Source: Actinospica acidithermotolerans (GTDB lineage: Bacteria; Actinomycetota; Actinomycetes; Streptomycetales; Catenulisporaceae). From it: a stretch of 51,319 nucleotides of DNA. Location: assembly GCF_018139625.1 (NCBI RefSeq), contig NZ_JAGSOH010000045.1:1-51319 (forward strand). The letters are read 5' to 3'. The position numbers were made by a program, and so were the translations under genes. The notes under the pieces were generated by a model. It was not told where the DNA came from. It searched no databases and saw only the letters and a program-made list of their open reading frames with translations. Below, in pieces: positions 9,454 through 39,060 of this stretch. The number at the start of each line of letters is the position of its first letter. Within the stretch, counting starts at the first letter, position 1.

Positions 9454-9575
9454 TTCCGCAGGATCTCGAACTCGGGTCGGCTTTTTCGCTCATTTGATAG
9501 GTGCCGCCCCTCGGCTTCGACTTATCATCGGGGCAAAGAGAAGAGGCGACGAACTGCCGTGGGAGGGGAGCCCGC

Positions 9576-11125: not shown

Positions 11126-11150
11126 CCGACCGCACGACGAAGGATGGAGC

Positions 11151-16990: not shown

Positions 16991-19498
16991 TCAGTGATCG
17001 GTCGCCATGAGCTCCCGCAGGGAGAGGAACACCGGGAGCATGAACGCGTATTCGGACAGTTTCGCGTTCGGCGGATGGCTCAGCCGCGGCTGCCGGACGG
17101 GGTCCGCCCCGTCTTCGGTCGGCTGCCTCTTCGGCGGATTGTCGGAACCCTGCGCCGAGATCGGCAGGAAGTAGACATCCTCCTTGCGGAAGACCGACTC
17201 CAGCCGGTCGATCAGCCGCGATCGGACCAGGTCGGAGAGCGACTGGGTATCCGCGGTGCGCCCGCCCTGCTGATCGGTGGGTTGATGGCCGAGCGCATCG
17301 CCGAGCGCGCCGAGTGCTTCCCTGGCCCGGTCCGAGATGGTTCGGGCCAGCTTCAGCTGCTGCTGGACGACCGGGTGGCCGAGCTCCGCGACCTTGCCTG
17401 CCGCAGCACCGGGGCCGGCGGCCTTCCAGCCGTAGCCCGCGGCGGAGCGGTACGCGGCGATGTCGGCCTCGCCGCCGTCGGCGCGGCCGCCCTTGACCGT
17501 CGCCGAGCGGGCGGAGCGGGCGAGCACGCCGTCCGCGATCAGCGACTCGTAGAAGGCGGTCAGGAACTTGACCTGCGGTTCGCCGGGATGCGCGCCCGTG
17601 CCCAGAGGACCGACGTAGAGGTCTGCCTTCGGGATGATGCAGACCACGTTCGGGCCGCCGCCACGTAGGTCGTCTCCGCGGATCTCGCGCAGATCGGAGA
17701 TCATCCGCTCGAGCAGGTCGAGCTGGCTTACCCGGGCACGGCTGCTCTCGTCCTTGGGCGTCCCGTCGGCGTTCTTTGACGTACGGGCCTCGAGGACTGA
17801 TTCAGTGTTGCGCAGCAGTGCCTGCCACTGTGCGGAATCGTGCGAGTGCTCCAGCTGCTTGAGCACCGCCTGCTCGATGGAGAGGTCGAACAGGAAGACC
17901 AGCGTCTCGGCGTGCTTGAGCACGCCGAGCACGATGGGATCGGCGCCTTCGCCGCGTACGCTGCGCGCGGCCTTCTCGCCGGGGATGTCGGTGAAGACGA
18001 AATTCGCCCCGAGCGAGGGCACCTTGGTCGACTCCACGCGAAGCTGGATGCTGTTGCGGGCGCCGGTGGGCGTCGGGTCGGGGAGGATCCCCTGCCAGTA
18101 GCGGTCGACATAGCTGTCGTATTCGCGCAGATCCTTGTCGGATTGGAAGCCGACCGTCGCGCCGAGGGCCTGTGCGTTGTTGTAGAACTGCAGCAGTCCG
18201 GTGAGCATCAGCGTGGACTTGCTGGTGCCCGGGCTGCCGATGAACACCACCGGGTGGGTCTGTTCGGCCTTCGGATACCAGCCGCAGAAGTCGGGCTCCT
18301 TCGCGGCGTAGTCGGGCGATGTCGCGCCGGGCTGGGCGGACGGGTTGATCGGGCGGCCGGACGGGCCGCGGCAGACGAAGACGACCAGCTTGTGTGTGTC
18401 AGGGCCGAGCAGTTCGACGAACTCCGCCACCGTCGCCGAGACGTCCCCCGGAGCCGGTGCGCCCAGATCGCCCGGCCGGGCCCCGTCGCCGGCGAGCAGG
18501 TTGAAGTAGTCCTCGGACAGCCGCAGCCCGGTCAGATCGGCGGCCGAGGCGGAGACGAACAGAAGCGGCAGCAGCTTCGGAGCCACGACTACCCGCCGCG
18601 GCAGCGTGTACGGGACGTGCGGCTCCACCAGGCCGGGGAACGCGGTCCAGACGTCCGGGCTCTCATGCCCGAGGAGCAGGACGAGCATGAGCCGGACCCG
18701 CCGCAGTTCTCCGAGCATCCGGCCCGCGTTCTCGACCTGCTCCTCGCCTATCAGCTGCCTGATCAGCTCGGGTTTGCCGAGTACGTCTTCGAGTAGGGCC
18801 AGATACCGCGAGAGCGTCGGCGCGATCTGCGGCTTCCCGCATAGAGCCGCGACCTTGTCCTCAGCGGGCCGGGCACCGGGGGAGTCGGGGGCCGTGGCGG
18901 TCAGCCAGCGCCGGATCTGCGGCTGGTCGAATACCAGCGACATGACATGCCCCATCATCCGCAACGGCTCGATCCCGCCGAGCAGCACCTCCACCACGGC
19001 CGCGAAGGGCGGTTCGGCGTCCTCGTAGCCTGACGCGCCGCCCCCGAGGCTCGCCGCGCCGTTCTTCGCGGCCGCGAGCGCGGCCTCCAGCTTCGCGATC
19101 GGCAGGAGGTCCTCGTGGATCAGCCTATGGAACGCGTAATGGTCGAACCGCTCCCACCACTGCTCGCGCACCAGGTCGGCCCCCTTCGTCGTGAAGATGC
19201 CGCGGGTGAAGACCCTCTCGGGGAGGTCGTCGCTGACGCGGTGCGCGTACGGCGCCGTGTCATCCCGAGTGGAACTCGCGATGTTCCGCGACGTCGCCTC
19301 GGCCTCAAAGTGAGCCAGGAAGGCGGCGTACTGCATGATGATCTCGTTGAACTCCTTGCGGGCGTTAATGGTGAGGTTGAGCTCGAACGAGCCGGGATTG
19401 CGCAGGCTCATCGGCACACCACAGGCCGGGCAGGCGAACTCCTGCGCCGAGCCCGGGACGATCGTTCGGAGCAAGTCGGCAGCCGTATTGTCGGGCAT
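16991..19498 (-). CDS. Large TRAFAC-like GTPase (double-GTPase type)
   Basis: An 835-residue protein. The N-terminus has a short zinc-knuckle-like CPACG (residues ~22-26), followed by a long helical region. The P-loop domain starts near residue 418: GSPGTSKSTL, FVFTDIPGEKAARSVRG (G3-like DIPG), and CIIPKADLYVG with PKAD as G4. This resembles the double-GTPase proteins found in bacterial conflict loci; that subfamily call is tentative. ATG 19498 is preferred over the upstream start at 19609 because GGGGGAG sits at ideal spacing and the extra residues are not family-like. A TGTGG-N8-CCACA inverted repeat (19593-19610) lies upstream and could be a Crp-type operator. It is convergent with the Hsp70-WD40 gene. 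Confidence 0.7.
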   Translation of the reverse strand: MPDNTAADLLRTIVPGSAQEFACPACGVPMSLRNPGSFELNLTINARKEFNEIIMQYAAFLAHFEAEATSRNIASSTRDDTAPYAHRVSDDLPERVFTRGIFTTKGADLVREQWWERFDHYAFHRLIHEDLLPIAKLEAALAAAKNGAASLGGGASGYEDAEPPFAAVVEVLLGGIEPLRMMGHVMSLVFDQPQIRRWLTATAPDSPGARPAEDKVAALCGKPQIAPTLSRYLALLEDVLGKPELIRQLIGEEQVENAGRMLGELRRVRLMLVLLLGHESPDVWTAFPGLVEPHVPYTLPRRVVVAPKLLPLLFVSASAADLTGLRLSEDYFNLLAGDGARPGDLGAPAPGDVSATVAEFVELLGPDTHKLVVFVCRGPSGRPINPSAQPGATSPDYAAKEPDFCGWYPKAEQTHPVVFIGSPGTSKSTLMLTGLLQFYNNAQALGATVGFQSDKDLREYDSYVDRYWQGILPDPTPTGARNSIQLRVESTKVPSLGANFVFTDIPGEKAARSVRGEGADPIVLGVLKHAETLVFLFDLSIEQAVLKQLEHSHDSAQWQALLRNTESVLEARTSKNADGTPKDESSRARVSQLDLLERMISDLREIRGDDLRGGGPNVVCIIPKADLYVGPLGTGAHPGEPQVKFLTAFYESLIADGVLARSARSATVKGGRADGGEADIAAYRSAAGYGWKAAGPGAAAGKVAELGHPVVQQQLKLARTISDRAREALGALGDALGHQPTDQQGGRTADTQSLSDLVRSRLIDRLESVFRKEDVYFLPISAQGSDNPPKRQPTEDGADPVRQPRLSHPPNAKLSEYAFMLPVFLSLRELMATDH

Positions 19499-20203
19499 CG
19501 TCTCCCCCAGCAGAAATAGCACGTGTGCGGTCGCGAACCGCGTCCCATCCGCTGCCATCATCGCTGGCGCCAAATGTGTGAGTACTCTGCGTTGTGGGAT
19601 TGTTACCACATCCCTCTCAATTGCGAGCCCGGCAGCCGCGCGAGCCGGCGGGAACAGCTTGGTGCTGCCTCGCTACGCAGTGGCCCAGTGAAGCGGGCTT
19701 GGGGGACGATCTCTGCCCGCGCCACCATGCGCCGCCCGGTTCGGCCGCGCAGTTCGGGCGGCCAGCCCTCCACTTGCGCTCTGGTCGGCGCCGCCGCAGC
19801 CTGGTGATCACCCGGAAGTGGTGGCTCGACGTTGGTTCCGCCAGTCGTGTTGATACAGCCAACGGCCATCGCGAGAGTTTCGCCGCTGCTCGGCGCCGTG
19901 CTCGCCCCGGCCACTGCGACCTGCCCGTGGAAAGGCCGACGGTTCTCCGCCGACTGAGGTTCGGGCGCGTCGATCGCTCCAACCCTCGTCGAACCCACGA
20001 TCGTGGCGGAGATCAGCGCGGCATCTACCGGCACCTGTGAAGTTCCTCCGTGCTCGGGCGGAGCTGCATCCGATTGACGTGCAGCAGTTCGACAAGCCGG
20101 AGGAAAGTACCGGCGATCAGTACGCAAACGAGAAGTCGTAGCGCCTTAACGTGGCCCTTTCTCGAAGCTGGCCGCTCGATGCGTCGTGAGCTGGTATCGA
20201 GGC
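19499..20203. other. Intergenic region between the GTPase gene and the decayed Crp gene
   Basis: About 700 bases with no convincing gene. The part next to 19498 is the leader of the minus-strand GTPase gene and includes the TGTGG-N8-CCACA inverted repeat at 19593-19610. On the minus strand, the frame that carries the C-terminus of the decayed Crp gene stays open to 20025 and passes through a hydrophobic run (VKALRLLVCVLIAGTFLRLV), but nothing supports a separate gene there. Confidence 0.45.
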
Positions 20204-20923
20204 GATGGCGCATCGGCAGCCCTCGCGGGTACGCCAGCTCGCGGAGCGCTTGTAAGTCGCGCACGAGCGGTTTGCGGCTATGGGGTCGATGATGCCTTGG
20301 TCGCGTAGCTGGCTGAGGGCGCGTTGGGCCGCGATCCCGGTGTAGCCGACCATCGTGCCCAGCTCGATCCGGGTCAGATCGACTCCGATGATGACGCCCT
20401 TGTTCGGCAGGGGCTGGCCGTATTCCTCAGTGAGCGCGACGAGCACCCGCGCTAGGCAGACCACTGCTTTGCCGCCGGAGAAGTGGATGTGGCGCTGGGG
20501 CGCCGCGAGGAGTCTGCGTCAGCTGCAACAGCAACCGCGGATGGCGGGCGACCAGCTGGTTGAAACTCTCCAGGTCCACGGCCGCCGTGCGTACCGGCTC
20601 GCGCCCGCAGGCCCGTACCGTGGCGAGCCGCCAGCCGTCGCCGCCGACCCGGATCGCCAGCCACGCGTCCTCGCGATTCGCCAGTTCCGCGGTCACCTTG
20701 ACGTACGTGGAGAGCAGGAAAAAGACGCCCGCGGCGGCGTCCCCTCGTGCATCAGGATCTCGCCGGGTGCGAAGGGGATCGCGCGGGCGGTGTCGAGCAG
20801 GTCCGCGAGCACGGGGACCTGGGTTACGGCCACGAAGCTGTGCGGCGGCCAGCCGCGGTCGGCTCGGCTCGCCCGGTCCCGTGGATCCTCGCTCTCGGCT
20901 CGCGCCACGGGGTGCCTCCACAT
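20204..20923 (-). pseudogene. Decayed Crp/Fnr-type regulator (module 2)
   Basis: Four minus-strand pieces, in alternating frames, line up along the intact module 3 Crp protein. They are: VPVLADLLDTARAIPFAPGE; VFFLLSTYVKVTAELANRED with LAIRVGGDGWRLATVRACGR; LARVLVALTEEYGQPLPNKG with VIIGVDLTRIELGTMVGYTG (the HTH) and LSQLRDQGIIDPIAANR; and VRDLQALRELAYP. Three frameshifts separate them. Relative to module 3, about 10 residues of the phosphate-binding cassette (VGEIAATDGG) are also missing. No functional protein can result. It is transcribed away from the module 2 cyclase gene, unlike modules 1 and 3 where the two genes are co-directional. Confidence 0.75.
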
Positions 20924-21357: not shown

Positions 21358-22152
21358 ATGGCCGCTGAAGACGCGACCCATCACTCGATTATGGCTTTGG
21401 ATATCGAGGGATTTACCCAACGCGACAATCCAGCCCAGATCTCGCTGCACGACGCCGTATACGGCATCGTCGGCGCCGCCGCGAGCGACGTCGGCATCGA
21501 CCTCGACCAGATCGGGCAGGCCGACACCGGCGACGGGATGCTACTGTTCTTCCCCGCCTCCGTGCCGACCGCGCTCCTGGTGGGCCCGCTGGTGCGGGCG
21601 CTCGGTGATCGATTGGCCGAACGCGCGAAGCAGTCCAGCGCGCAGTACACGCCTCGGCTGCGGATCGCCCTGCACCACGGCCTCGCGCACCGCGGCGAGC
21701 GCGGTTGGACCGGCGACGCCGTGAACTTCACCTGCCGTCTGGTGGACGCGCAGCCGCTGCGGGAGGTGCTGGCCGCGGCGTCGCGGACGAACCTGGTGCT
21801 CATCGCCTCGGACCAGGTCTACGAGGCGGTCATCCGGCACGACTACCGGGCGGCGGATCCCGCGACATATCGCGCCGTCACCTTCAGTGTAAAGCAGCTT
21901 AAGAACATCAGGGCTTGGATCTATGCCCCGGGCTATCCGAATCCTCCGGGTCTGCCGTCCGAGCCGCTTGGGCCTGCCGCGGCCGACGCCGGTGCCGACG
22001 AAGCCGACGTCGACGCCGGTGAGGTCGGCGCGCGGCTCGGCGCGGCCGCGGAGACCGTGGTGCGCAACCAGCCGCAGGCCGACACAGTCGAGGGCAACCA
22101 GATCGGCGAGATGCACGTCACGATCCACAATCCCGGGTCGGTACGTCTGTGA
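21358..22152 (+). CDS. Class III nucleotidyl-cyclase-like protein with intact catalytic residues (module 2)
   Basis: A 264-residue protein. MALDIEGFT gives metal-binding Asp15, ADTGDGMLLFF gives Asp59, and GDAVNFTCRLVD keeps the transition-state Asn123 and Arg127. All four key residues of class III cyclases are therefore present, which is not true of the other two copies. FSVKQLKNIRAWIYAP ends the domain. A Pro/Ala/Asp-rich linker leads to EGNQIGEMHVTIHNPGSVRL. It may make a cyclic nucleotide; which one cannot be read from sequence. ATG 21358 is fixed by a strong Shine-Dalgarno. The TGA overlaps the GTG of the STAND-like gene, so it opens a six-gene coupled operon. Confidence 0.78.
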   Translation: MAAEDATHHSIMALDIEGFTQRDNPAQISLHDAVYGIVGAAASDVGIDLDQIGQADTGDGMLLFFPASVPTALLVGPLVRALGDRLAERAKQSSAQYTPRLRIALHHGLAHRGERGWTGDAVNFTCRLVDAQPLREVLAAASRTNLVLIASDQVYEAVIRHDYRAADPATYRAVTFSVKQLKNIRAWIYAPGYPNPPGLPSEPLGPAAADAGADEADVDAGEVGARLGAAAETVVRNQPQADTVEGNQIGEMHVTIHNPGSVRL

Positions 22153-24437
22153 CCACGCCGAAGGCCGCGCCGTCGACCGCGCCGGCCGCCCCGCCCCCCG
22201 CAACCGCTGCCAAGCTGGCCGAGCCCGGTTGGCGTCAGCCGATATCTCCGACAGTCCTGAGTCAGGATCCACCCGCGTCCGACGTACCGGACGCCGCGCC
22301 GGTGTCGTCGGATCAGGATTCGACCACCGATAAGACCTCGACCTCGACCACGGACGATGACGCGCAGGCGGCCACCTCGCGGCCGGGTCAGGGCACGCGA
22401 CGGCGTGAGTATCTCGATCACGCGGACCGTTTCATCGTCGAAGGTGACGCCGTGGGACACAAGCACATCTACCTGGTCGGCGGCGCACGCAGCGCGCGGC
22501 TGCGCCTGCTCTCCCCGCTGATGCGCGAACCCGTGCGCCACGCGTTCGTGAATCCGGAGGGCTGGGACGACGTGCGGGCCGGCTTTGCCAAGAAGCGCAC
22601 CACGATCCTGCGCGGCCCCTCCGGCAGCGGCAAGATGGCCGCCGCGATCCGGCTGCTCCAGGGGGCGGACCGGCTCTACCACCTGAGCGACGCGACCGAC
22701 CTGAATCGCCTGGCGGAGTCGCTGGAGTTGGATGCGGACGAGCGTGGCGGGATCGAACGCAACGCGGGTTTCGTGCTCAACCGGCCCGTCGCTTTCTCCG
22801 CGCTGCGCGGTTCGAGCCTGCTGGGGCTCGACGAGGCGCTGCTGCGCGCGGACGCCAGGCTCGTGCTGACCGTGGACAGCGAGGACTCGATCCCCGATGA
22901 CGACCTGGTGGACTACCTGGTCACGATTCCGCGCGGGCCGGCCTATGCCGACGTCGTGGCCAGCCACTTGAGGTGGCGGCTCGACGAGCATGCCGCCGAG
23001 CGGATTCTCGGTCTCGACCTCACGAAGGAGGTGATCGCCGAGCAGTTGGAGCGCCGTACGACCTGCCACATGGCCGCGCGGCTCGCCCAGGTGATCGCCG
23101 ACGGATACGAGGCGAACCCCGGGGCAGCGCTCGATGCCGGCTGGATCAGGGATCGAGTATCCCGGCACGGCGCCGAGGATTTCGAGATCTGGTTCACGTC
23201 GCTCGGCGACTCGGAGACACGCTACTTTGCGGTGGCCCTGGCCGTCCTCAACGGGCTCGCGCACGAACGCGTCGCCGACGCCGCCCGCGCGCTCCACCGC
23301 CGGCTCGACAAGGGCCGCAACCTGGTGCTCGCCTCGCCGCTCGACGGCCCCTGGGAGGGGGACAGCCCGTTCCGGCTCACCCGCGCGGAGCGGCTGCACA
23401 AGCTCAGGGCACTGAGTCGGCCGGCGGACGTGCGCGGCCAGTTCGGCCGCAGCACCGCGCAGGTCGTCGAGTACCAGGACGCCGACTACGCCCGCATGGT
23501 CATCCGGCACGTGTGGAACCAGTACCAGATCCACGACGTGCTGGCCGACTGGCTCGGTGCGCTGGCCGACGACGCCGACGACCAGGTCCGGGTGTGCGCG
23601 GGCACCGCTCTCGGGCTGATCGCGGTCGACTCCTTCGAGTACGTGACGCGGCACATCCTGGGCCCGTGGGCGGCCAGCCCACGCCCGTCGCGCCGCGACG
23701 CGGTGGCCTACGCGTTGCGGGTGGTCGCCGCCGAGCCGGACCTCGTGGACAACGTGCGGCAGTTGGCGAGCGGCTGGTACGCCAGCCGGAACACGCCGGA
23801 ACTGCAGGCCACGGCGGCACGGGTGCACGGGATCAGCCTCGCCTCCGCCGACCTGGACGCAGCGGTCGAGGCTCTGGACCGGCTGTCGGTCATCGACGAC
23901 ATCAGGGTGGCGGTTGCGATCGGTGACAGCCTGGCCGACCTTCTGGTGGACGGGAACGTCGACCTGGCCGCGCGGATCCTGCCGCAGTTGGAGGACGCGC
24001 TCGGCGTCCGCGAACGCACGGTCACGGCTCAGCTCTCCTTCCTCATCCTCGCCGATTCGCTGATGACCGACGCCGACGAGCCCGACGGCACCGGGCCGGA
24101 GGTGCCCTGGCCCTCGCTGCTCTGGCTGGCGAATCAGCATTCCGCAGTCCGCAATCCGCTCGCGTTGCTGTGGCGGCGCGTGATCAACGAAGGGGTCTTC
24201 CACGCCGAGGCGGAGAAGATCATGACCAACTGGGCGGCCCTGGCCGAGCCCGACGACGCGATGCGCGACGTCCTGCTCCGGCTACTGCGGGCCGTCATGC
24301 GCGGCGACGACCGCTCGGTGCGCATCCTCGAGCGCTACGCGGACCATTGGGTCGCGGAGGAGAACCTCGCGCCGCTTCCGTTGATCAGCACCGCGCTGCG
24401 GTCCGTCATCGCCGTCGAGAAGGAGTATCTGCCGTGA
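22149..24437 (+). CDS. STAND-like P-loop protein with helical repeats
   Basis: A 762-residue protein. An N-terminal Ala/Pro/Thr-rich disordered region (~1-75) precedes a segment with AVGHKHIYLVGGARSARLRL. The P-loop follows at ~155-162 (TTILRGPSGSGKMAAAIRLL), with Met in place of the usual Thr/Ser after Lys, and a possible Walker B is ARLVLTVDSEDS. The second half (~430-760) consists of helical repeats without catalytic motifs. This is the shape of signal-transduction ATPases that sense through repeats and relay through oligomerisation. The weakened P-loop may bind but poorly hydrolyse nucleotide. It overlaps both neighbours by 4 bp, so it probably works in a complex with the cyclase and the vWA proteins. 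Confidence 0.65.
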   Translation: MTTPKAAPSTAPAAPPPATAAKLAEPGWRQPISPTVLSQDPPASDVPDAAPVSSDQDSTTDKTSTSTTDDDAQAATSRPGQGTRRREYLDHADRFIVEGDAVGHKHIYLVGGARSARLRLLSPLMREPVRHAFVNPEGWDDVRAGFAKKRTTILRGPSGSGKMAAAIRLLQGADRLYHLSDATDLNRLAESLELDADERGGIERNAGFVLNRPVAFSALRGSSLLGLDEALLRADARLVLTVDSEDSIPDDDLVDYLVTIPRGPAYADVVASHLRWRLDEHAAERILGLDLTKEVIAEQLERRTTCHMAARLAQVIADGYEANPGAALDAGWIRDRVSRHGAEDFEIWFTSLGDSETRYFAVALAVLNGLAHERVADAARALHRRLDKGRNLVLASPLDGPWEGDSPFRLTRAERLHKLRALSRPADVRGQFGRSTAQVVEYQDADYARMVIRHVWNQYQIHDVLADWLGALADDADDQVRVCAGTALGLIAVDSFEYVTRHILGPWAASPRPSRRDAVAYALRVVAAEPDLVDNVRQLASGWYASRNTPELQATAARVHGISLASADLDAAVEALDRLSVIDDIRVAVAIGDSLADLLVDGNVDLAARILPQLEDALGVRERTVTAQLSFLILADSLMTDADEPDGTGPEVPWPSLLWLANQHSAVRNPLALLWRRVINEGVFHAEAEKIMTNWAALAEPDDAMRDVLLRLLRAVMRGDDRSVRILERYADHWVAEENLAPLPLISTALRSVIAVEKEYLP

Positions 24438-26203
24438 CCGCCACGCTCCCGCTGATCCTGAGTTCCGAACCGGTCCAGCGCGGCCTGCTGGCGCCGGCGA
24501 AGCCGTCGCGGCCCAACGTCGCGGTGGTCTATGCGACCGGCTTCGGCGAGGTCGCCTGCTTCGACGGACGGCCGTTGAGCCGATCCCAGCAGCTGATGTC
24601 GAAGTACCGCATCCGCTACGAGGTCGATCTGAGCGATCATCGGCGCACGGCCAAGCTGGAGAGTTCCCCGCTGCCCGCGCTCGGCGACGCGTACTACTTC
24701 GAAACAGTCGTGGACGTGGGCTTCCGCGTGGTCGACCCGGAGGCCGTGGTGCGTCGCAACGTCGACGACGCTCTCATCATCGTCTACAGCTTTCTGATCG
24801 AGTGCCTGCGTCCAATCACGCGGCGGCACGATATCCAGGACGCGCAGGGCGCCGAGGACGAGGCGAACGGGCTCTTCCGGCAGCCGGCCCGGCTGCCCGA
24901 GGGCATCGAGATTTATCGCTGCGTCGCGCGGGTGAGTCCCGACGCGGCGGCCCGCCGGCACATCCAGTCGCTGGTCGACGCGCAGCGGCAGAGCGCGGTC
25001 GGCAGCGCCCAGCATTCCCTGGCCGTGGCCAGCACCCAGCACGAGCAGCAGATTAGCGCGATGCAGCAGCAGGCCAGGCTGCGGGCCGAGGAGCGCGAGC
25101 AGGCCGCGATGGCCGACCGGCCGCTGGATCTGCCCGGGCTGATCACCATGCACCTAGCCAAGCACCCGGACGAGACCTCGTACGCGCTCGAGCTGCTCTC
25201 CCGGCACCAGCAGGCGCAGCAGGATCAGCGGAACATCGACGACCAGCGTTCGATGGACCTCGTCCGGTTCATGATGGAACGGGACCTGATCCAGGCCGTG
25301 GACGTGGACCGGCTGCGCAACCAGACGCTGACCCGCGTTCAGGAGATCGCCACCACGCGCCCTGCCTCGCTCCCGCCCGCCGACTGGGACGACGACCTGC
25401 CGGCGGCCGTGCCCGGGAGGGTGATTCGCGGGGCGGCCGAGTCCGACGACGCCATCGCGCTAGCACCCGCGTCCGCGCCGCGCCAGGTGGAGTCCTCCCC
25501 ACCGACTCAGGCAGCTCCGACGGACACCGCGTTGCCCGTCTATCTCGCGATCGACGAGTCCGCGGCGGACCCGGCCTACTCGGCCGCGCTCAACAACGCG
25601 ATCCAAGGCATGATTGCGCAGCTGGCCGGCTCGCCCGCGGTGGTCGGCGCCCTTCGGGTCGCGATCCTCGGATTCGCGGGTGATGTGGCGGTCCGGATGC
25701 CCATGACGACGGTCGGCGTCGGCGGCTACGTGCCGACGATCGAACCGCGCGATGGCGGAGCCGGCATCGGCAGGCTGTTCGACTACCTGATCGACACCAT
25801 TCCCACCGACATCGAAAGGCTCAAGGGCCGCGGTCTGACGGTGAGTCGGCCGATGCTCTATCTACTCGCCGCGAACACGGTGCCGGACGGCGACGACTGG
25901 CGGCAGGCGCACCAGCGGCTGACCGACCGCGCCGTGTTCCGCTATGCGCCGAACATCGTCGCCTGCGGCATCGGTTCGGCCGAGGCAGCGATGATCGCCG
26001 AGGTCACCAGCCGACCCGAGCTCGGCTTCACGGCTCCCGCCGAGATGCCGATCCTGCAGGCGGTCGCTCAGTATGCCGCGTTCCTCGCCTCAGCCATCTC
26101 CCAACGAGGCCTCGCACAGCTCACGGGTCGACCCGAAGCAGTGCTGCAACAGCCAGCGGGCTTCCGCCGCATCACCGAAACGATGACAAGGGACACCAAC
26201 TGA
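24434..26203 (+). CDS. Band-7/SPFH-like plus degenerate vWA protein
   Basis: A 589-residue protein. Residues ~30-185 (YEVDLSDHRRTAKLESSPLP, YFETVVDVGFRVVDPEAVVR, GIEIYRCVARVSPDAAARRH) resemble an SPFH/band-7 domain. A Gln/Glu-rich coiled segment follows (~185-310, HEQQISAMQQQARLRAEERE). Residues ~369-570 are a von Willebrand A fold clearly related to the next gene (PVYLAIDESAADPAYSAALN, VAILGFAGDVAVRMPMT), but its metal site is lost: the DxSxS motif reads DESAA and the later Asp in FLSDG is replaced (LAANT). It probably serves as scaffold for the active vWA partner. The GTG at 24434 overlaps the previous stop; longer in-frame starts lie inside the STAND-like gene and are unlikely. Confidence 0.65.
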   Translation: MTATLPLILSSEPVQRGLLAPAKPSRPNVAVVYATGFGEVACFDGRPLSRSQQLMSKYRIRYEVDLSDHRRTAKLESSPLPALGDAYYFETVVDVGFRVVDPEAVVRRNVDDALIIVYSFLIECLRPITRRHDIQDAQGAEDEANGLFRQPARLPEGIEIYRCVARVSPDAAARRHIQSLVDAQRQSAVGSAQHSLAVASTQHEQQISAMQQQARLRAEEREQAAMADRPLDLPGLITMHLAKHPDETSYALELLSRHQQAQQDQRNIDDQRSMDLVRFMMERDLIQAVDVDRLRNQTLTRVQEIATTRPASLPPADWDDDLPAAVPGRVIRGAAESDDAIALAPASAPRQVESSPPTQAAPTDTALPVYLAIDESAADPAYSAALNNAIQGMIAQLAGSPAVVGALRVAILGFAGDVAVRMPMTTVGVGGYVPTIEPRDGGAGIGRLFDYLIDTIPTDIERLKGRGLTVSRPMLYLLAANTVPDGDDWRQAHQRLTDRAVFRYAPNIVACGIGSAEAAMIAEVTSRPELGFTAPAEMPILQAVAQYAAFLASAISQRGLAQLTGRPEAVLQQPAGFRRITETMTRDTN

Positions 26204-26889
26204 TGGCCGACAACAGGGGCGTACTGCTGCCCGTTTACATCCTCGCGGACGAGTCATTTTCGATGAAGTCCTTGGAGAAGGACCTTAACGAGGGGCTGGC
26301 CTCACTGCACGAGTCGCTGCGCACCGAACCGATGACCGCGGCGAAGGTGCGTGTCGCGGTGCTCGGCTTCTCCGACGACGTGGCGGTTCGGATGAAGCTG
26401 ACCGATGTGCGCACCGAGCGAGAGCTGCCGCGAGTCGCCATTCGCGGAGGGACCAGCTATGCCGCCGCGTTCCAAGACCTGCTCACCCGGATCCCCGGTG
26501 ATGTGGCGTACCTCAAGGGCGAGGGATATAAGGTGCACCGGCCGACGGTGTTCTTCCTGAGCGACGGCCAGCCGACCGACGGCGAGGGCTCGTGGCAGAT
26601 CCCGCACCAGCAGCTCATCGACAAGTCACGGACGCCGGTCGCGCCGAACGTCATCGCGTTCGGCCTCGGCCAGGCGCTGGCCGAGACGATCCTCGCCGTC
26701 GCCACCCGACCGGACTTCGCGTTCATGGCGGTGCCCGGGGTGAATCTGGGCGAGGCGATCAGGAAGTTCTTCGAAACGCTGACCTCTAGCGTCGTCGAGT
26801 CCGGCCGGGCCATCGCCAACGGAGACCCCGAGGTCGTGATCGAACGGCCGGATCCGGACGTCGTCCGGATGGCGATCGACTTCGTGTGA
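26203..26889 (+). CDS. vWA-domain protein, TerY-like
   Basis: A 228-residue single vWA domain with a complete metal-ion-dependent adhesion site: DESFS at 16-20, Thr84 in RGGTSYAAAF, and Asp121 in VFFLSDGQPTDGEG. TerY-like vWA proteins occur together with a PP2C phosphatase and a kinase in the so-called TerY-P triad, and the next two genes are exactly those, so the triad is complete here. The vWA is usually taken as the partner or substrate whose phosphorylation is switched. The ATG lies in the TGATG overlap with the preceding gene, and its own TGA overlaps the PP2C start. It is a paralogue of the C-terminal half of the preceding protein. Confidence 0.82.
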   Translation: MADNRGVLLPVYILADESFSMKSLEKDLNEGLASLHESLRTEPMTAAKVRVAVLGFSDDVAVRMKLTDVRTERELPRVAIRGGTSYAAAFQDLLTRIPGDVAYLKGEGYKVHRPTVFFLSDGQPTDGEGSWQIPHQQLIDKSRTPVAPNVIAFGLGQALAETILAVATRPDFAFMAVPGVNLGEAIRKFFETLTSSVVESGRAIANGDPEVVIERPDPDVVRMAIDFV

Positions 26890-28058
26890 GTGACGGCATG
26901 CCCTTCTGGAAGAGCAGGGAAGATCAGATCGCGGAGTCCGGCGAGGCTCCGCCGTCCGAGGCGGCACACCGATCGGGTGGTCGCGTGCTGGGCGACGGTG
27001 CCTCGATGGTGGGACACGAAGAACAGCTCTCGCAGCACGAGCAGCGTCACCTCGCGGCACGGGAGACGGGGCGGCGGCCTTGGCGTTCGCCCGGAGAACC
27101 GGCCCCGGGACGGCACGCGGAGCCACCGCAGCCGCGACCCGAGGCACCCGGCATCGGAATCCGATACCCCGTCAGAGACTGGACGCCCATTGTGGTGGAC
27201 AGGGCGATCAGCAAGTTCGAACCCCAGCCTCCGATCCGGACCGGACTCAATCGCGCCGATACCGAATTCGACGGCTGGAGCAGTCCCGAACTGACCCTGC
27301 GTTCGGCCTCGGTCCGTGGCTACCTACACCGGCACAACGGCAAGCCGCGGCAGGACGCCGTCGAGACGGCCTACCACCCCAGGACCAGGACCGTCGTGTT
27401 CGCCGTGGCCGACGGGGTCTCGAGCGCCCCGCGGGCCGAACTCGGCGCGGTGGTGGCCTGCCAGGCCTTTGTTGCCAACCTTATCCACCAGTTGGACCTA
27501 GGACAGGTCATCGAATGGCAGCAGGCAGTTGACTCCACGGTCGACGCCCTGCTCGTCGAGGGTTCCCGTCTGCCCGGTGTGACGGCCGGAGATCCATCAC
27601 AGATCGAGCGGCAGCTCGCCACGACGCTGGTGGCGGGGACGATCTGGCCGACCGACGACGGCATGCTGCTGACGGTGCTGCAGATCGGGGATTCCACAGC
27701 GTGGATTCTCGACCGGGAGGGCTACCATCCGTTGCTCGCCTCGAAGAACGAGCGGCCGGGCGGTGTGGTTTCGAACGCGGTCTCGCCGCTGCCGCGCCGT
27801 CCGCAGGGTCCCATCGCCCAGGCCCGGTTGAACCTCACGCCCGGCCAGGTCCTGCTTGTGGGCACGGACGGTTTCGGAGACCCGCTGGGCGACGGCGACG
27901 GGCTGGTGGGCGAGCTGTTCCGCCACCATCTGCTCCCCGGTCCGCCTCCGGCCGTGGGCCTCGCCCACCTGCTTGACTTCTCCAGGGAGCTCTTCGACGA
28001 CGACAGGACCCTGCTCGCGCTATGGCCGCTCGCGCAAGCCCGGGGGAGTTCGGGATGA
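26886..28058 (+). CDS. PP2C-family protein phosphatase
   Basis: A 390-residue protein. The first ~130 residues are charged and Pro/Arg-rich, probably disordered. The PP2C domain (~135-370) shows KPRQDAVE, VFAVADGVSSAPRAELGAVV, LQIGDSTAWILDREG, VLLVGTDGFGDPLGDGDG and LFDDDRTLLALWPL, giving the metal-binding aspartates. It should dephosphorylate Ser/Thr residues, most likely those put on by the kinase encoded directly downstream, completing a phosphorylation switch with the vWA protein. The GTG at 26886 overlaps the previous stop by 4 bp, and its stop overlaps the ATG of the kinase gene. No membrane segment is seen. Confidence 0.85.
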   Translation: MSDGMPFWKSREDQIAESGEAPPSEAAHRSGGRVLGDGASMVGHEEQLSQHEQRHLAARETGRRPWRSPGEPAPGRHAEPPQPRPEAPGIGIRYPVRDWTPIVVDRAISKFEPQPPIRTGLNRADTEFDGWSSPELTLRSASVRGYLHRHNGKPRQDAVETAYHPRTRTVVFAVADGVSSAPRAELGAVVACQAFVANLIHQLDLGQVIEWQQAVDSTVDALLVEGSRLPGVTAGDPSQIERQLATTLVAGTIWPTDDGMLLTVLQIGDSTAWILDREGYHPLLASKNERPGGVVSNAVSPLPRRPQGPIAQARLNLTPGQVLLVGTDGFGDPLGDGDGLVGELFRHHLLPGPPPAVGLAHLLDFSRELFDDDRTLLALWPLAQARGSSG

Positions 28059-29698
28059 TGCCGCTGCGGCTCGCCGATCTGAACCTCGGCAGCGTGCTGG
28101 GCAGGGGCGGTCAGGGGGTCGTCTACGCGGTGCGGAACCTGCGCATCGACCAGTGCTGGGACGCCGTGTACAAGGAGTACAAGCCGTCCGTGCTGGCCGC
28201 GGCGGATCTCGTCGCCCTGGAGCAGGTGGTCGAGGCGCTCCCGGCATTCGCGACCACGGACGCCGCTTGGCTACGGGACAACAGCGCGTGGCCCGCAGGC
28301 CTAGTGCAGGACGGCGGCCGGATCACCGGCTTCCTGATGCGCGCAGTGCCGCCGGACTTCTTCTTCACGCCGCTCTCGCTCAGTTCGACGACACAGAACA
28401 AACCGAAGCTGTCCGCCTTCGAGTTCCTGTTCAACGATGAGTCGTACATGGCTGACATCGGTCTTCGGATTACCGACCACGACCGGCTTATGCTGCTGGC
28501 CTTCCTCGCCGGTTCGCTGCATCGGATGCATCGACTCGGCATCGCGATCGGCGATCTGTCGCCGAAGAACCTGCTGTTTCGGGTCGGCGCTAGGCCCGCC
28601 TGCTTCTTCATCGACTGCGACGCGATGCGGGTGGCGGGGAGCAGCGTCCTGCCACAGGTGGAGACACCTGACTGGGAGCTGCCCACCGGCGAGGAACTCG
28701 CGACCCCGGCTGGCGACGTCTACAAGCTGGGGCTGCTCGCCATCCGGCTCTTCGACCGGAATCAGAACTCGAAAGACCTATGCGCGCTCGAAGCCATCTC
28801 GAAAGAACTCGGTGAACTGGCGATGCGCAGCCTCGACGACAATCCCGCCAGGCGCCCGCTGCCGGTGGAATGGCTCGAGTCGCTCTACCCTGCGGCGCAG
28901 GCGCTACCGACCGCACCGGTAAGTTCGGCGACCACCGCTACCAACGCCGCGCAGACCACGCGGATGCCGGTCGCCGCTGGTATGTACGGTCCGGGCCCGC
29001 AGCAGTTCACTCCGGCTCCGGGACAGCAGCCGGTCGGCGTCGGACCCGCTCGACCCGGCAACGCGGGCCTTCGCGCGTTCGGCGCCACACTCGCAGCTGC
29101 GGCCGTCCTCGCAGGTCTGATCGCCGCGGGCGTCGGAATCGACCACGCCGTGCGCGACAGTCAGCGGGCTGCGGCCACGGGCGCCGTGTCGTCGACACCT
29201 ACTGACACTGGTAATGCCGCCGTGATGCCGACTTCCGACAGTCCCACCGCCGCGCCCGCCACGACGGCGCCCACCAGTGTGGGCATCGTTCAGATTGCCC
29301 CGTCCCTCGCCTCGGATCCTCGGGCCGAGCAGGTGGCGGGCATGTTCAACACCTACTTCCAAGGAATCGACACGAAGAATTACGCGCAGGCCGTCAACGA
29401 GTACGACCCGTCCGGAGTGGTGGATCCGACCAACTCGACGCAGGTGAGCGACTTCGAGAAGGGCGTATCCACCAGCAACGATTCCCAGATCGACCTGCTC
29501 GCCCTCGCGCCCTCGGGCAGTGGTGCGGCGGCAACCGCGCAGTTGACGTTCCAGAGTCATCAGTCACCCGGATACGGGCCGCAGGGCAACACCGACGAGA
29601 CCTGCACGGACTGGAACCTGACCTACACGCTGTCGCAATCCTCTGCGGGAGTCTACCTGATCCTGGGGACCCAGTCCGCAAGCGATTCGGCCTGTTGA
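28055..29698 (+). CDS. Membrane-anchored Ser/Thr protein kinase with extracytoplasmic domain
   Basis: A 547-residue protein. The kinase domain has Gly-loop LGRGGQGVVYAV (~15-26), Lys in AVYKEYKP, catalytic loop GIAIGDLSPKNLLF (Asp in place of HRD context) and metal-binding FFIDCDAM instead of DFG, the pattern of the kinases found with PP2C and vWA partners. A Pro/Thr-rich linker leads to one membrane helix near residue 342 (ATLAAAAVLAGLIAAGVGI). The outer part ends in a ~125-residue NTF2-like domain (VAGMFNTYFQGIDTKNYAQA to SDSAC) with two cysteines that may pair. It may sense an outside cue and phosphorylate the vWA proteins. ATG 28055 follows GGGGGAG; ATG 28058 is equally possible. It ends the operon. 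Confidence 0.8.
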   Translation: MMPLRLADLNLGSVLGRGGQGVVYAVRNLRIDQCWDAVYKEYKPSVLAAADLVALEQVVEALPAFATTDAAWLRDNSAWPAGLVQDGGRITGFLMRAVPPDFFFTPLSLSSTTQNKPKLSAFEFLFNDESYMADIGLRITDHDRLMLLAFLAGSLHRMHRLGIAIGDLSPKNLLFRVGARPACFFIDCDAMRVAGSSVLPQVETPDWELPTGEELATPAGDVYKLGLLAIRLFDRNQNSKDLCALEAISKELGELAMRSLDDNPARRPLPVEWLESLYPAAQALPTAPVSSATTATNAAQTTRMPVAAGMYGPGPQQFTPAPGQQPVGVGPARPGNAGLRAFGATLAAAAVLAGLIAAGVGIDHAVRDSQRAAATGAVSSTPTDTGNAAVMPTSDSPTAAPATTAPTSVGIVQIAPSLASDPRAEQVAGMFNTYFQGIDTKNYAQAVNEYDPSGVVDPTNSTQVSDFEKGVSTSNDSQIDLLALAPSGSGAAATAQLTFQSHQSPGYGPQGNTDETCTDWNLTYTLSQSSAGVYLILGTQSASDSAC

Positions 29699-29960: not shown

Positions 29961-30186
29961 AGCCTCCGCGGCTGTGCTCTTCTTCGTGGTCTGCTGGGCG
30001 CGTGTGTGCGCCGTGGTCGTGCTCGCCTCGGACGCCGCCGCCGCTGCGGATGCCCGTAGTGGTCGATAATTCGGCCACCGGTCTTGACCTGCTGCTTTGG
30101 CGGCGTGGTGGTCAGCGCTCGTGTGTGTCTCGTTGGTGTACCGGGCGATGGTCACGGTGCTGTCGTGGTTGGTGCTGTTGGCCTGG

Positions 30187-30487
30187 CCAACGTCGTGGCA
30201 GCACTCCCATGCCGGCGCAGAGCGCGCAGGCCAGCAGTTGCGCGGCACAGACGATCGCTACGACCACGGTCCAGGCTGTCGGTGTATGCGTGCCGTGCAC
30301 GATACTGAACAACGCGCCACTCGCCACACCCGCTGCTCCCAGGATGAGGCCCGCCTTGGCGTCGGCTTCGCCGTTTCGAACTTCCGGTGCATTCGAGCAG
30401 GCGCCAAGCCTGGTCCCGCGACGGCGGGATCGGCGGCGGCGCGCCCGGGCGCGCCTCGCTCCGAACTTGCCGAAGCGCACGTGTCAT
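30187..30487 (-). pseudogene. Decayed Pycsar-effector-like membrane gene (module 3)
   Basis: One minus-strand frame reads RDQAWRLLECT, matching PERAWRVFDAT of the intact module 1 effector. After a frame change near 30386 another reads NGEADAKAGLILGAAGVASG, ALFSIVHGTHTPTAW and VAIVCAAQLLACALCAGMGV, matching ADGKAGLTLGSAGVVGGVLF and the second membrane helix. The NPIFFGDIA motif and the C-terminal helix are gone. It is transcribed away from the module 3 Crp gene, whereas in module 1 the effector is co-directional with the cyclase. It shows that module 3 once carried, or was next to, the same effector type. Confidence 0.6.
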
Positions 30488-30706
30488 CGCGCATCCCCCC
30501 TCCCCGTCCAGTCAGCCGCGGACGCGACGGCGATCGATCGCGCACGGCGCGCGCTGCGGGGCGCACACGGCGCGCGCCCCGCCGTGTTCCGCGCTCCGAG
30601 TGCCGTGTGTATTTCCACCCCCACCCTGTGAAAGCACGGACGCGGCGAAACGCGGCAGGTCAGAATCGGGGGAATGTCCGATCCTCCCACGACAACGGAG
30701 GAAAGC
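30488..30706. promoter_or_regulatory. Upstream region of the module 3 Crp gene
   Basis: About 220 bases between the decayed effector (minus) and the Crp gene (plus), so it is a divergent control region. No clean -10 box is visible. The sequence just before ATG 30707 contains GGAGGAA at good spacing. That decides the start: an upstream in-frame ATG at 30674 has its purine run touching the start codon and is a poor site. Confidence 0.4.
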
Positions 30707-31456
30707 ATGGGGAGTGCTTTCGATCAGGATGTGCGGGCTCTGATCGACTCGTGTCAAGCCGATTGGCTGCCGTCCAGTTTCCTGGGCCGGCTGCCACGGC
30801 CGGCGCTCGACGCGTTCCAGGCCGCAGGAACGCTCGTCCGCTTCAGGCCCAAGGAGATCCTGATCACCGAGGACGACGCGGAGACCGACGTCTTCCTGCT
30901 GCTGTCGTCCTGTGTGAAGGTCACCGCCGCGCTCGACGCCGACGGCCACGCGCTGCTAGCCATCCGGGTGGGCGGCGACATCGTCGGCGAGATCGCGGCG
31001 ACGGACGGGGGACGGCGTGTTGCCACGGTCCGGGCCTGCGGGCGAGAACCCGTCTACGCGATCCGGCTGGCCCAAGCCGACTTCCACCGCGAAGCCTCGG
31101 CCTACCCGGACGTGCTCCTACGCCTGTCGGGGGCGATCGGCCGCAAACTGCGCACGGCTACGCGACGGCGCGTGGACTACTCGGGCCAGCCCCCGCTGAT
31201 CCGCCTGGCCCGCGTTCTGGTCGAACTCGCCGACGACTACGGGCAGCCGCTCGGCGGCAAGAGCATCATGATCGGTGTCGATCTGACCAAACTCGAACTG
31301 GGCACGCTGGTCGGAGTCACTCAGACCACTGCGGAGCGGGCTCTGCGCACGATGCGCGAACAAGGGCTGATCGACACGCGCGGCCGTCGGCCGATCGTCC
31401 GGGACGCAGAAGCGATGCGAGCCCTCGCCCGGCCGCTCTCCCAGACCGACAAATGA
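30707..31456 (+). CDS. Crp/Fnr-type transcriptional regulator (module 3)
   Basis: A 249-residue intact protein. The cyclic-nucleotide-binding roll spans ~40-125: FRPKEILITEDDAETDVFLL and GGDIVGEIAATDGGRRVATV. The Arg of the phosphate-binding cassette is kept, but the usual Ser/Thr after it is Val, which may change ligand preference. A C-terminal winged HTH follows, with LTKLELGTLVGVTQTTAERA and LRTMREQGLIDTRGRRPIVR. It is the closest intact relative of the decayed module 2 regulator. The start at 30707 is set by GGAGGAA. The cyclase-like gene follows on the same strand after 127 bp that contain a repeated CTGCGTAC. It is likely a local regulator of the module (inference from position). Confidence 0.85.
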   Translation: MGSAFDQDVRALIDSCQADWLPSSFLGRLPRPALDAFQAAGTLVRFRPKEILITEDDAETDVFLLLSSCVKVTAALDADGHALLAIRVGGDIVGEIAATDGGRRVATVRACGREPVYAIRLAQADFHREASAYPDVLLRLSGAIGRKLRTATRRRVDYSGQPPLIRLARVLVELADDYGQPLGGKSIMIGVDLTKLELGTLVGVTQTTAERALRTMREQGLIDTRGRRPIVRDAEAMRALARPLSQTDK

Positions 31457-31492
31457 CGGTTTAACAGAACTCTCGGACCGAACCGGCCGATA

Positions 31493-31516
31493 CTGCGTAC
31501 CTACGTATCTGCGTAC
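31493..31516 (+). promoter_or_regulatory. Candidate operator: CTGCGTAC repeat
   Basis: CTGCGTAC occurs at 31493-31500 and again at 31509-31516, a 16-bp period. Between the copies lies CTACGTAT, so a TACGTA-like core is reiterated. It sits in the short gap between the Crp and cyclase-like genes of module 3, where a binding site for the regulator would be expected. Function is inferred from position and repetition. Confidence 0.35.
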
Positions 31517-31583
31517 TCGGACGGTCTGCCTCGCCGAGCGGGAGGGGGCGGTCCGGCCTCGCTGCGACCGTCGGGAGAGCCCG

Positions 31584-32331
31584 TTGCGCCACTCAGTGTC
31601 CGACCGCGTACGTCGGTTGATAACTTTCGACGACATCCGCGGATACCACAACCACAGCACGACCGCGCAGCAACTGCTGCTGATGTCGGTCGACGCCGCG
31701 CGACGGCGCGCCGCGCAGAATGTCGGCCTCGATCGCGGAGCAGCGGACATCCAGTCGCACGGCGACGGGGAGATGGTCCGGTGGCCCGAGGACGTCACGG
31801 CCGTCGCGGTGTTGAACGACTATGTCCGAGAACTGTGTTCCGAGTTGGCCTCGCTCAACCGGGAGAGGCCCGAAGGCCGACCGATCCAGTTACGCATGGC
31901 CGTGGTCGACGGATACTCCGCGCTGGAGGGCGACAACCTCGCCGGCCGTGGGCCCGTCACCGCATCGCGACTGCTCGACGCCAAGCGGTTGCGCGAGGCG
32001 CTCGCGCTCGCGCCGGGCCACCCTCTCGCTGTGATCACCACGGACGAGATCTACCAGAATATCGTCGCGGACCCGTACCGCCAACTGCAGCCCGAGGACT
32101 ATGTCCGGGTTCTGGTACGCAACGACCGCAAGGACTTCGCACAGACCGCCTGGCTGACCGTGCGCCAGCCGGGCCGAGCAAGACCGACGGGCCGCGCACC
32201 GATCCCCGACCCGAAAGCGGCCCGCCCGCAGGCAGCCGGTATGTCCAGCACAACACGCCCGGCGCCGGCGGCATCGTCTTCGCCTCGCAGGGCGGCGTCC
32301 AGAACAACACCATCGAGAAGGGTGCCGATCG
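31584..32331 (+). pseudogene. Class III nucleotidyl-cyclase-like gene, frameshifted and 3'-truncated (module 3)
   Basis: The frame from TTG 31584 (GGGAGAG just upstream) gives LITFDDIRGYHNH with Asp16/17, HGDGEMVRWPEDV with Asp61, and GPVTASRLLDA with Arg129. The transition-state Asn is Val, as in module 1 where it is Ile. LVRNDRKDFAQTAWLTVRQP closes the domain. Near 32220 coding character moves to another frame, which reads SRYVQHNTPGAGGIVFASQG, a typical tail of this family. At about 32331 the gene meets a transposase remnant on the other strand and is lost. The N-terminal 200 residues could still be made. The frameshift may be real or a sequencing error. Confidence 0.65.
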
Positions 32332-32739
32332 GCCATACTCCCGGTTCTTGCCGGAGTACCACGCGTCGATCTCGCGGCCCTTCTTCGAAACTTTCGTCTC
32401 GGCCAGTCGATCGGTCGCCATCAGTGTGCCGTCCAGGATCAGATAAGCGCATCTCGCGGCTTTCGCCGCTTCCAGCGCCTCCTGCAGATCAGGGGCCTCA
32501 TCCGAGAGGACCTCAAGAACCTCGTCGCGGTAGCGATACGCGGTGGTGCGCGAGAGGCCGAAGCCGGCCCCGAGCCGCTTGACGTCGCACCGATCGCGCA
32601 GCCACGTGGGGGAGTGGTGGGCGCGCTGGAGTTGTACCCGCAGCAGCATCGGCGCGATGTCGGTCCGCGTAGGGATCGCGCATCGACGTGCCCTGAGGAA
32701 ATTTCTCATTTTGCGTGTCTGCGGCATGCTGCGGTGCAA
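32332..32739 (-). pseudogene. IS5-family-like transposase, N-terminal remnant
   Basis: The minus strand encodes about 136 residues: MLLRVQLQRAHHSPTWLRDR, LGAGFGLSRTTAYRYRDEVL (an HTH), AYLILDGTLMATDRLAETKV (carrying the first catalytic Asp) and DAWYSGKNREYG. These are the N-terminal and first DDE parts of IS5-like (DDE_Tnp_4) transposases. After REYG the frame no longer resembles the family and enters the 3' end of the cyclase-like gene. The catalytic core is therefore truncated and the element is dead. The remnant separates the module 3 cyclase from the STAND genes. Confidence 0.7.
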
Positions 32740-32822
32740 CTATGAGATTTGGAGGTTCGCCGTGTCCGCGTCGCGTTCGAGGGGGATGAGTTGCTTTCAT
32801 CGACGTCGCCACTGGCCGCACG

Positions 32823-38217: not shown

Positions 38218-39060
38218 TCAGGTCCAGGCGGGTTCGCCGCGATGCGTCGTGATCTTCAGGACTTCGCAGCCCATGCGCTCGACCGCGTCGAGTATCACCG
38301 CTCGAGCCTTGGCTTCGTCGTCGGGCGGGTAGGCGATGCGGATCTGGTGGCCGTAGGCGGTCTCGTAGGTCAAGCGCCATCCGTGCTCGGGCGCGGCGAA
38401 GTGGTCCTGGTGGACGTCGCCGTTGTCGTAGGCGCGGCGGTCGAGCGTCGGGGCGAGGGCGTTGCGCAAGATGCGTAGCCGCTCGGAATACGGATGCCGG
38501 CCGTAGTCGAGTTTGATGTAGACGTGCTTGAGCTCGCGGTACGGATCGAACCAGGGCGCGGGCTGGTCGGGCTCGCGAGGGCTGAAGACCGTGGTCTCGA
38601 TGCGGCCGGCCAGCCATCCGGCCAGGAACTCGACCGCGCCGACCGGAAAGACGTCGTAGCTCCAGCTCCGCTGGTTCCAGGCGATCGTCGTCCACTGGTC
38701 GGGCTCGCCCTCGGTCAGCCAGCACAGGCGGTCCCCGTTGTCGGTGCCCGCCCATTCCAGCAGGCCGCCTGGTTCGGGGTAGATCGCGTACGGGCTGTCC
38801 TCGGGATTCTCCTCGCGGAACGAGTGCTCGGAATCGAGGATGTCACGGGCGCTTCGCATCAGTAGATCGCGTGAGCCGAAGGGCGTGAGTGGGGTGATGA
38901 AGTCGACGAACTGCCCCAGGCCGTAGGCCTCGATGAGCTGTTTGAAGTCCGCGGGTAGGGCCAGTCCCAGTTCGGCTTCGACACTGTGCCAGTCCCCGCG
39001 TGCGTCAACGGGAGCAGCGGGCGGCGGCACCAGGCGGGTCAGCTCGTCGAATGCGGTCAC
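38218..39060 (-). CDS. SUKH (SMI1/KNR4)-like protein
   Basis: A 280-residue soluble protein. DWHSVEAELGLALPADFKQL followed by IEAYGLGQFVDFITPLTPFG, YPEPGGLLEWAGTDNGDRLC and WLAGRI is the SUKH pattern: a helix with an E-x-x-L-G-x-x-L-P-x-D-y signature, then a beta-rich core. SUKH proteins are often immunity proteins against nuclease-type toxins, and no matching toxin gene is adjacent. The C-terminal ~90 residues (YIKLDYGRHPYSERLRILRN on) are a separate segment I do not recognise. The GTG start is chosen because the SUKH helix begins ~25 residues in. The opposite strand is extensively open here, but its composition marks it as a shadow. Confidence 0.7.
   Translation of the reverse strand: MTAFDELTRLVPPPAAPVDARGDWHSVEAELGLALPADFKQLIEAYGLGQFVDFITPLTPFGSRDLLMRSARDILDSEHSFREENPEDSPYAIYPEPGGLLEWAGTDNGDRLCWLTEGEPDQWTTIAWNQRSWSYDVFPVGAVEFLAGWLAGRIETTVFSPREPDQPAPWFDPYRELKHVYIKLDYGRHPYSERLRILRNALAPTLDRRAYDNGDVHQDHFAAPEHGWRLTYETAYGHQIRIAYPPDDEAKARAVILDAVERMGCEVLKITTHRGEPAWT

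Follow-up and report, generated by a model that had tools for sequence, protein, structure and literature searches.

What kind of signalling system would bring together, in one series of overlapping genes, a nucleotide cyclase, a STAND-like protein and a set of phosphorylation proteins? The question is posed by a stretch of 51,319 nucleotides from Actinospica acidithermotolerans (contig NZ_JAGSOH010000045.1), here called the window, in which six genes of this kind are packed end to end. The answer that we favour, and hold to be somewhat probable, is an actinobacterial immunity-type operon in which a STAND receptor would switch the cyclase on by homotypic templating, with the resulting cyclic nucleotide feeding a Crp-type regulator and the membrane protein PycTM.

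Gene content of the six-gene array

The six open frames form one compact array on the plus strand (21358–29698). From the first gene to the sixth, adjacent frames overlap by 4, 4, 1, 4 and 4 bp, as claimed in the original prediction, which had every junction overlapping by 1–4 bp; gene 3 and gene 6 could each begin further upstream, at the mechanical starts 24170 and 28022, respectively. The frames look coding, given that GC at the third codon position is 0.81–0.90 in all six genes. A simple pattern scan revealed no upstream Crp box or palindrome common to the 17 relatives described below, and a sigma-70 promoter scan, which is uninformative for this organism, found no promoter.

The first protein, P1 (21358–22152, +), consists of a cyclase domain (residues 1 to ~200) and a disordered C-terminal tail. 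The window copy is given no cyclase name by Pfam, NCBIfam or PADLOC, and the Pfam Guanylate_cyc model weakly matches two of nine P1 relatives (best 0.092). A profile of these nine relatives matches solved class III cyclases, the best being Ma1120 (1e-7), and the AlphaFold model of P1 (mean pLDDT 82.9, falling below 50 at residues 223–264) matches solved class III cyclases in Foldseek (7e-8) and superimposes on Ma1120 with a Z score of 17.6 over 156 residues at 2.2 Å. By its predicted fold, P1 is a class III nucleotide cyclase. Asp15, Asp59, Asn123 and Arg127 are conserved in all 18 aligned copies (the window and 17 loci); we take the two aspartates to be the metal residues, and Asn123 and Arg127 are presumably catalytic likewise, which together with the predicted fold agrees with the claim that the cyclase is catalytically complete. 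Adenylyl cyclases carry Lys at the position equivalent to D59-4; in P1 this residue is Ala in the window and, across the 24 rows of alignment A6, most often Glu, with Lys in one. The PycC models of PADLOC do not match P1, and PycC structures are absent among the 50 listed fold matches, which excludes nothing.

The second protein, P2 (22149–24437, +), has the STAND-like organization of a P-loop NTPase core followed by helical repeats, as had been proposed, the likeness being weak by sequence and the P-loop partly degenerate in the family. The nSTAND3 model weakly matches six of the nine members of the P2 alignment (best 0.0012) and gives no match in the window copy. In the predicted model of P2 (mean pLDDT 79.1), the P-loop part is joined to a long region of helical repeats; its best fold match is Orc1/AAA+, and NLRP7, NLRC4 and Avs4 are matched too, all with low TM-scores. 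The key P-loop position is Lys in 15 of 18 copies and Arg in three, the window sequence being GPSGSGKM. A seeming P1–P2 gene fusion in one relative (L036, 1042-aa ORF) was rejected, for the P2 frame there reads through P1 DNA and P1 itself lies in another frame.

P3 (24434–26203, +) combines an SPFH/Band-7-type domain with a C-terminal degenerate vWA domain, an assignment that goes beyond the original prediction, as do the usual Crp and frequent PycTM companions of the operon and the matched motif of P1 and P2 described below. Band_7 matches four of eight P3 family members (best 3.3e-7) and does not match the window copy which, like P2, is left unnamed by PADLOC, NCBIfam and Pfam. The C-terminal part of the window P3 shares 30–36% identity with TerY vWAs and is related to P4. 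It has lost the DxSxS metal motif; of 16 aligned copies, 14 lack this motif and two retain it.

The last three genes encode, as had been recognized at the outset, a TerY-P-type triad, namely, a TerY-like vWA protein, a PP2C phosphatase and a kinase. P4 (26203–26889, +; VWA_2, 5e-7, with TerY-annotated relatives) has intact MIDAS residues, retained in 18/18 aligned copies, and the Asp motifs of P5 (26886–28058, +; PP2C_2, 1.7e-19) are retained in 17/17. P6 (28055–29698, +) comprises a Ser/Thr-kinase-like domain, a hydrophobic stretch visible by eye and a C-terminal domain without an assigned fold. The kinase domain falls below the Pfam cut-off and has remote kinase-type matches in PADLOC and NCBIfam; its Lys, catalytic Asp/Asn and metal Asp are retained in all 17 aligned copies. 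Pfam matches neither a zinc ribbon nor an OB-fold in P6.

Neighbouring Crp, PycTM and sister modules

The array is flanked by remains of a Crp gene and a PycTM gene. On its upstream side lies a decayed Crp-family regulator gene (20285–20851, −), broken over frames and similar to the window Crp at 30674–31453 (4e-24); on the other side is a PycTM remnant (30175–30369, −; 45% identity over 65 aa, 7e-7, to the PycTM at 10523–11122). The next module has an intact gene for a Crp-family regulator (30674–31456, +; HTH_Crp_2, 2.8e-14; cNMP_binding, 9e-11), a possible reader of the operon's signal. Pfam detects no cyclic-nucleotide-binding domain in P2–P6. The intact Crp genes of the two sister modules (8629–9453 and 30674–31456) lie within 13 kb and, since all three P1 matches in this genome fall inside the window, the modules may share readers, or the operon may be partly disabled.

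The first sister module (8629–16980, +) is a single array that encodes a Crp protein, a cyclase and an adjoining PycTM (PF18967, 7e-15), along with an Hsp70–WD40 protein and two dynamin-like GTPases. It is followed by a gene (16991–19609, −) for an 872-aa protein with P-loop and GTPase-like motifs by eye and no Pfam or NCBIfam match. The third module (30674–35201, +) comprises Crp, cyclase and NB-ARC/TPR genes. At the 3' end of its cyclase gene, in another frame, lies a motif-like sequence, GGIVFASQGGVQNNTI, which is overlapped by a frame that by eye is transposase-like (32035–32739, −), so that this module looks damaged. Further downstream are a SUKH-family gene (38218–39060) and, ~3 kb past the modules, an integrase-like frame identified by eye (41042–42334, +). 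Related gene sets occur elsewhere: a plasmid of Streptomyces sp. NBC_00466 (L013, 6393–14002) groups a P1-like cyclase gene with genes for a Crp/Fnr regulator, a TPR protein and a product whose annotation reads Pycsar system effector family, and a core locus of Actinocrinis puniceicyclus (L056, 2–3181) encodes Crp, cyclase and P2, followed by large genes, one with a tubulin-like start by eye.

Conservation in relatives

A scan of named genomes with alignment A5 yielded 29 loci. The 17 closest (L117–L133; Actinocrinis, Streptomyces, Micromonospora and others) each encode P1, P2, P3 and the TerY vWA, a result which, A5 itself having been built from triad-bearing loci, shows that the unit is kept in close relatives and not how frequent it is; the other 12 lack the TerY vWA. 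The PP2C phosphatase and the kinase are present in 16/17 (L119 is cut off by the end of its contig), Crp in 13 and PycTM in seven. As far as the contigs extend, 16 loci retain the gene order of the window, the exception being L133, in which the triad runs PP2C–kinase–vWA; L133 and L117 come from one genome, that of A. puniceicyclus (G003), which is also the source of L036 and L037. In all 17, the P1 and P2 genes share exactly four bases, ATGA or GTGA. Not every junction overlaps in relatives: of 16 loci examined, 15 have the window order and a value for the distance from P3 to TerY (taken to the nearest in-frame start codon), and in 13 of these there is a gap of 13–54 bp.

The wider surveys outline a recurring core. 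A P1-like gene is found in 13 of the 14 genomes of the window's family, its own genome included, and among 25 family cyclase loci a Crp-like gene is present in 23 and PycTM in six, within the stretch fetched. Across the class, the P2 profile matches 51/394 genomes, again counting the window's own. The search yielded 56 loci, with P1 in 40, P3 in 28, Crp in 34, PycTM in 16 and the full triad in nine; the respective numbers for the 21 strongest loci (L061–L081) are 19, 21, 16, 12 and nine. Overall, the core consists of Crp, cyclase, STAND and SPFH proteins, with PycTM optional and the TerY-P triad as a recurrent extension.

This distribution bears on what the operon is for. It might be a housekeeping or developmental system of mycelial actinomycetes, in which a cyclic nucleotide, Crp and the kinase and phosphatase would form a membrane-stress or morphology switch; the SPFH-type protein, the kinase with its hydrophobic stretch and the Crp regulator would all suit such a role. 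However, the patchy occurrence of P2 in the class, the decay of parts of the locus, the presence within one window of three cyclase modules that differ in payload, and the PycTM and STAND-type partners are all reminiscent of defence loci. We regard such a function as unlikely, although by no means negligible.

A second question is whether core and triad act together. Two independent defence modules, the cyclase/STAND/SPFH set and a stand-alone antiphage TerY-P triad, might simply adjoin without a functional link. Among the 21 strongest P2 loci, 11 lack the TerY vWA in the fetched flank, against nine with the full triad (in L063, TerY is followed by the contig end, and L077 is also short); nothing in the stretch examined around a plasmid-borne triad (L007) matches P1, P2 or P3; and TerY-P-like triads act alone elsewhere, as stated in the part of PMC11090510 used here, which cites Gao 2020. 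On the other hand, the 17 closest loci all keep the core with the TerY vWA, 16 with the whole triad (the triad-biased query applies here as well), window-type P3 carries a vWA domain related to P4, and the gene order in which triad and core are joined varies. Functional independence is, in our judgement, distinctly unlikely. The original prediction, that second-messenger and phosphorylation signalling are linked in one unit, holds in that the linkage of cyclase, STAND protein and triad is kept in relatives, and needs amending in that the triad is separable, many related loci carrying the cyclase/STAND/SPFH core without it.

The GAP1-N2 and MoxR-vWA conflict systems, reported in 2020, have a third, actinobacterial theme of kinase, PP2C and vWA proteins; that the operon is one of their forms is very improbable. 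Such a triad, with kinases fused to TM helices among its forms, and the coupling of a cNMP cyclase to Band-7 in the vWA component of MoxR-vWA systems are reported in the part of PMC7159879 drawn on here, and a GTPase-like gene is at hand in the window (16991–19609); yet neither GAP1 nor MoxR is matched in the six genes by Pfam or NCBIfam, and what recurs across loci is the Crp/cyclase/STAND/SPFH core.

A matched motif in P1 and P2

The main new result, and a support of the favoured, immunity-type reading, is a short motif in receptor and cyclase. In the window it is represented by VEGNQIGEMHVTIHNPG near the C-terminus of P1 (22087–22137, +) and by VEGDAVGHKHIYLVGG near the N-terminus of P2 (22437–22484, +), two sites 300 bp apart that have no DNA in common. 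P1 and P2 could be paired in 47 loci, of which 46 were used, L069 being left out on account of its doubtful P1 frame. In the test relied on, low complexity was masked and the C-terminal 60 residues of P1 were scored against the N-terminal 190 of P2; pairings were permuted over 20 draws, each taking a single representative from every one of 24 clusters (formed by single linkage at 40% P2 identity). The own-pair score sums were 872–1007, compared with a permuted mean of 530 (sd 33); own pairing thus exceeded permuted pairing by 11–13 sd, and none of 200,000 permuted pairings reached the observed sum. In 40/46 loci, the own score for the P2 N-terminus exceeded that for P2 residues 190–380. Against all other clusters, the own pair was the strict best match in 22/46 and among the best three in 29/46, and 30/46 pairs passed at 1%, and 34/46 at 5%, when compared with composition-preserving shuffles; conversely, 24/46 were not the strict best match and 12/46 missed the 5% level. 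Two earlier versions of the test are superseded. The first, on full, unmasked tails, was confounded by low complexity (five representatives; 3/120 permutations reached the own sum), and the second, in which the own pair was strictly best in 20/46, 27/46 passed at 1% and 0/5,000 permutations reached the own sum in each of five draws, cut some P2 N-termini too early.

Across the family as a whole, then, the C-terminus of P1 and the N-terminus of P2 share a short motif that, as judged by sequence comparison, co-varies operon by operon. Among the 17 closest loci, one motif pattern matches 11 P1 and 15 P2 proteins and no other examined ORF (family-assigned or at least 150 aa). Examples of pairs are GKGANANVSGRDQTINQ with GKGGNANVSGGDQTINQ (L095) and GDQIGGPSHRADGHGVVNAPGRDQ with GDDIAGASHRATDGGTVNAPGRDQ (L089). 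The closest relatives of the window have a motif of the type V.GD.VGGDK.V, of which the window pair, VEGNQIGEMHV and VEGDAVGHKHI, seems to be a variant. The masked test places this pair first of 42 when it is set against other clusters; taken alone it is weak, its score being reached by 267 of 2,000 shuffles in the unmasked test, and it becomes convincing only through those relatives. Both motif regions are modelled with low confidence beside well-modelled domains, as expected for a signalling motif. That the likeness is merely one of composition, between tails rich in Gly, Val, Asp and Lys without specific pairing, is very improbable, for although these tails are low in complexity and several single pairs were non-significant in the unmasked test, the excess of own over permuted pairing persists after masking and most pairs surpass composition-preserving shuffles at 1%.

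Other cyclases of the family (L051, L052, L057, L059 and L060) end in different motifs, several of the VQxGDxHxH type, which small proteins encoded next to them seem to carry at their ends as well, a hint of more homotypic pairs.

A proposed signalling route

The anatomy of the operon points to P2 as the putative sensor, P1 as the enzyme, Crp and PycTM as readers, P3 as a scaffold and P4–P6 as a phosphorylation switch. When activated, P2 would oligomerise, and its N-terminal motif would template the matching motif at the C-terminus of P1 in a homotypic, probably amyloid-like manner, thereby activating the cyclase. The cyclic nucleotide, presumably a mononucleotide, would then be read by the linked Crp-type regulator and, where present, by the membrane effector PycTM, while P3 may serve as a membrane scaffold and the TerY-P triad as an add-on phosphorylation switch, either setting a threshold or passing the signal on to further targets. 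The operon as a whole may serve in phage defence. In its most general form, the proposal is that actinomycete NLR-type receptors switch on a dedicated cyclase by operon-specific amyloid templating, and that the diffusible nucleotide drives transcription through Crp, the membrane effector PycTM and a kinase/phosphatase threshold switch; this generalization we put forward tentatively, as an attractive possibility.

If the proposal is true, local amyloid nucleation would be amplified into a cell-wide signal. The matched tags on receptor and cyclase suggest a new wiring of immunity-type signalling, and would offer a direct and cheap handle on receptor-driven cyclase activation by homotypic templating, with the divergent motif pairs of the 24 clusters as candidate orthogonal specificities.

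Comparison with known systems

Several of the individual ideas are not new. According to the part of PMC8195603 considered here, a cNMP cyclase coupled by EAD is linked to iSTAND2 through a homotypic folded adaptor, and the coupling of cNMP cyclases to Band-7 proteins, as well as the association of Crp-like regulators with conflict systems, is likewise published (PMC7159879, in the part considered). The EAD/iSTAND2 system resembles the operon in using a homotypic adaptor to connect cyclase and STAND protein. However, that adaptor is a folded EAD or death-like domain in a MoxR-vWA setting, whereas in the operon it would be a short motif in a disordered region, with MoxR unmatched in the six genes. 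In the open-access literature searched, which covered few papers in full, we found neither the variant with a short motif nor its spread or its setting among Crp, PycTM, SPFH and TerY-P genes.

The third theme of GAP1-N2 systems shares with the operon the actinobacterial set of kinase, PP2C and vWA proteins and differs in its GAP1 component, which is unmatched here, where the core consists of cyclase, STAND and SPFH proteins. Compared with TerY-P triads (Anantharaman 2012 and Gao 2020, as cited in PMC11090510), the TerY vWA, PP2C and kinase genes are likewise adjacent and their catalytic residues intact, but P6 lacks a Pfam-detectable zinc ribbon or OB-fold and the operon adds the cyclase/STAND/SPFH genes. 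Pycsar (PycC with PycTM or PycTIR), a system characterized by production of cCMP or cUMP upon infection, also relies on a class III cyclase, and PycTM stands beside several relatives and the sister cyclase; by contrast, P1 is unmatched by the PycC models, the PycTM beside the operon is a remnant, and STAND-like, SPFH, Crp and TerY-P proteins are added.

The layout is that of BASS (bacterial amyloid signalling sequences, with pairs of NLR and effector), in which, as described in the part of PMC7889193 used here, a motif at the N-terminus of the receptor is paired with one at the C-terminus of the effector, the two being encoded by adjacent or overlapping genes, and BELL, CHAT and TIR are named as effectors; the word 'cyclase' is absent from the main texts of PMC7889193 and PMC12261475. 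Gene adjacency or overlap, motif positions, occurrence in filamentous actinobacteria and a STAND-type receptor are common to BASS and the operon, the motif arrangement being found in the family as a whole and weakly in the window pair alone. The output domain, however, is a nucleotide cyclase, and the likeness is one of layout and motif position, the motif of the operon being a putative, probably amyloid-like one. The conserved operon would unite STAND receptors bearing amyloid-type motifs, Pycsar-like cyclic mononucleotide signalling and TerY-P phosphoswitches, three bacterial immune themes that have been studied separately.
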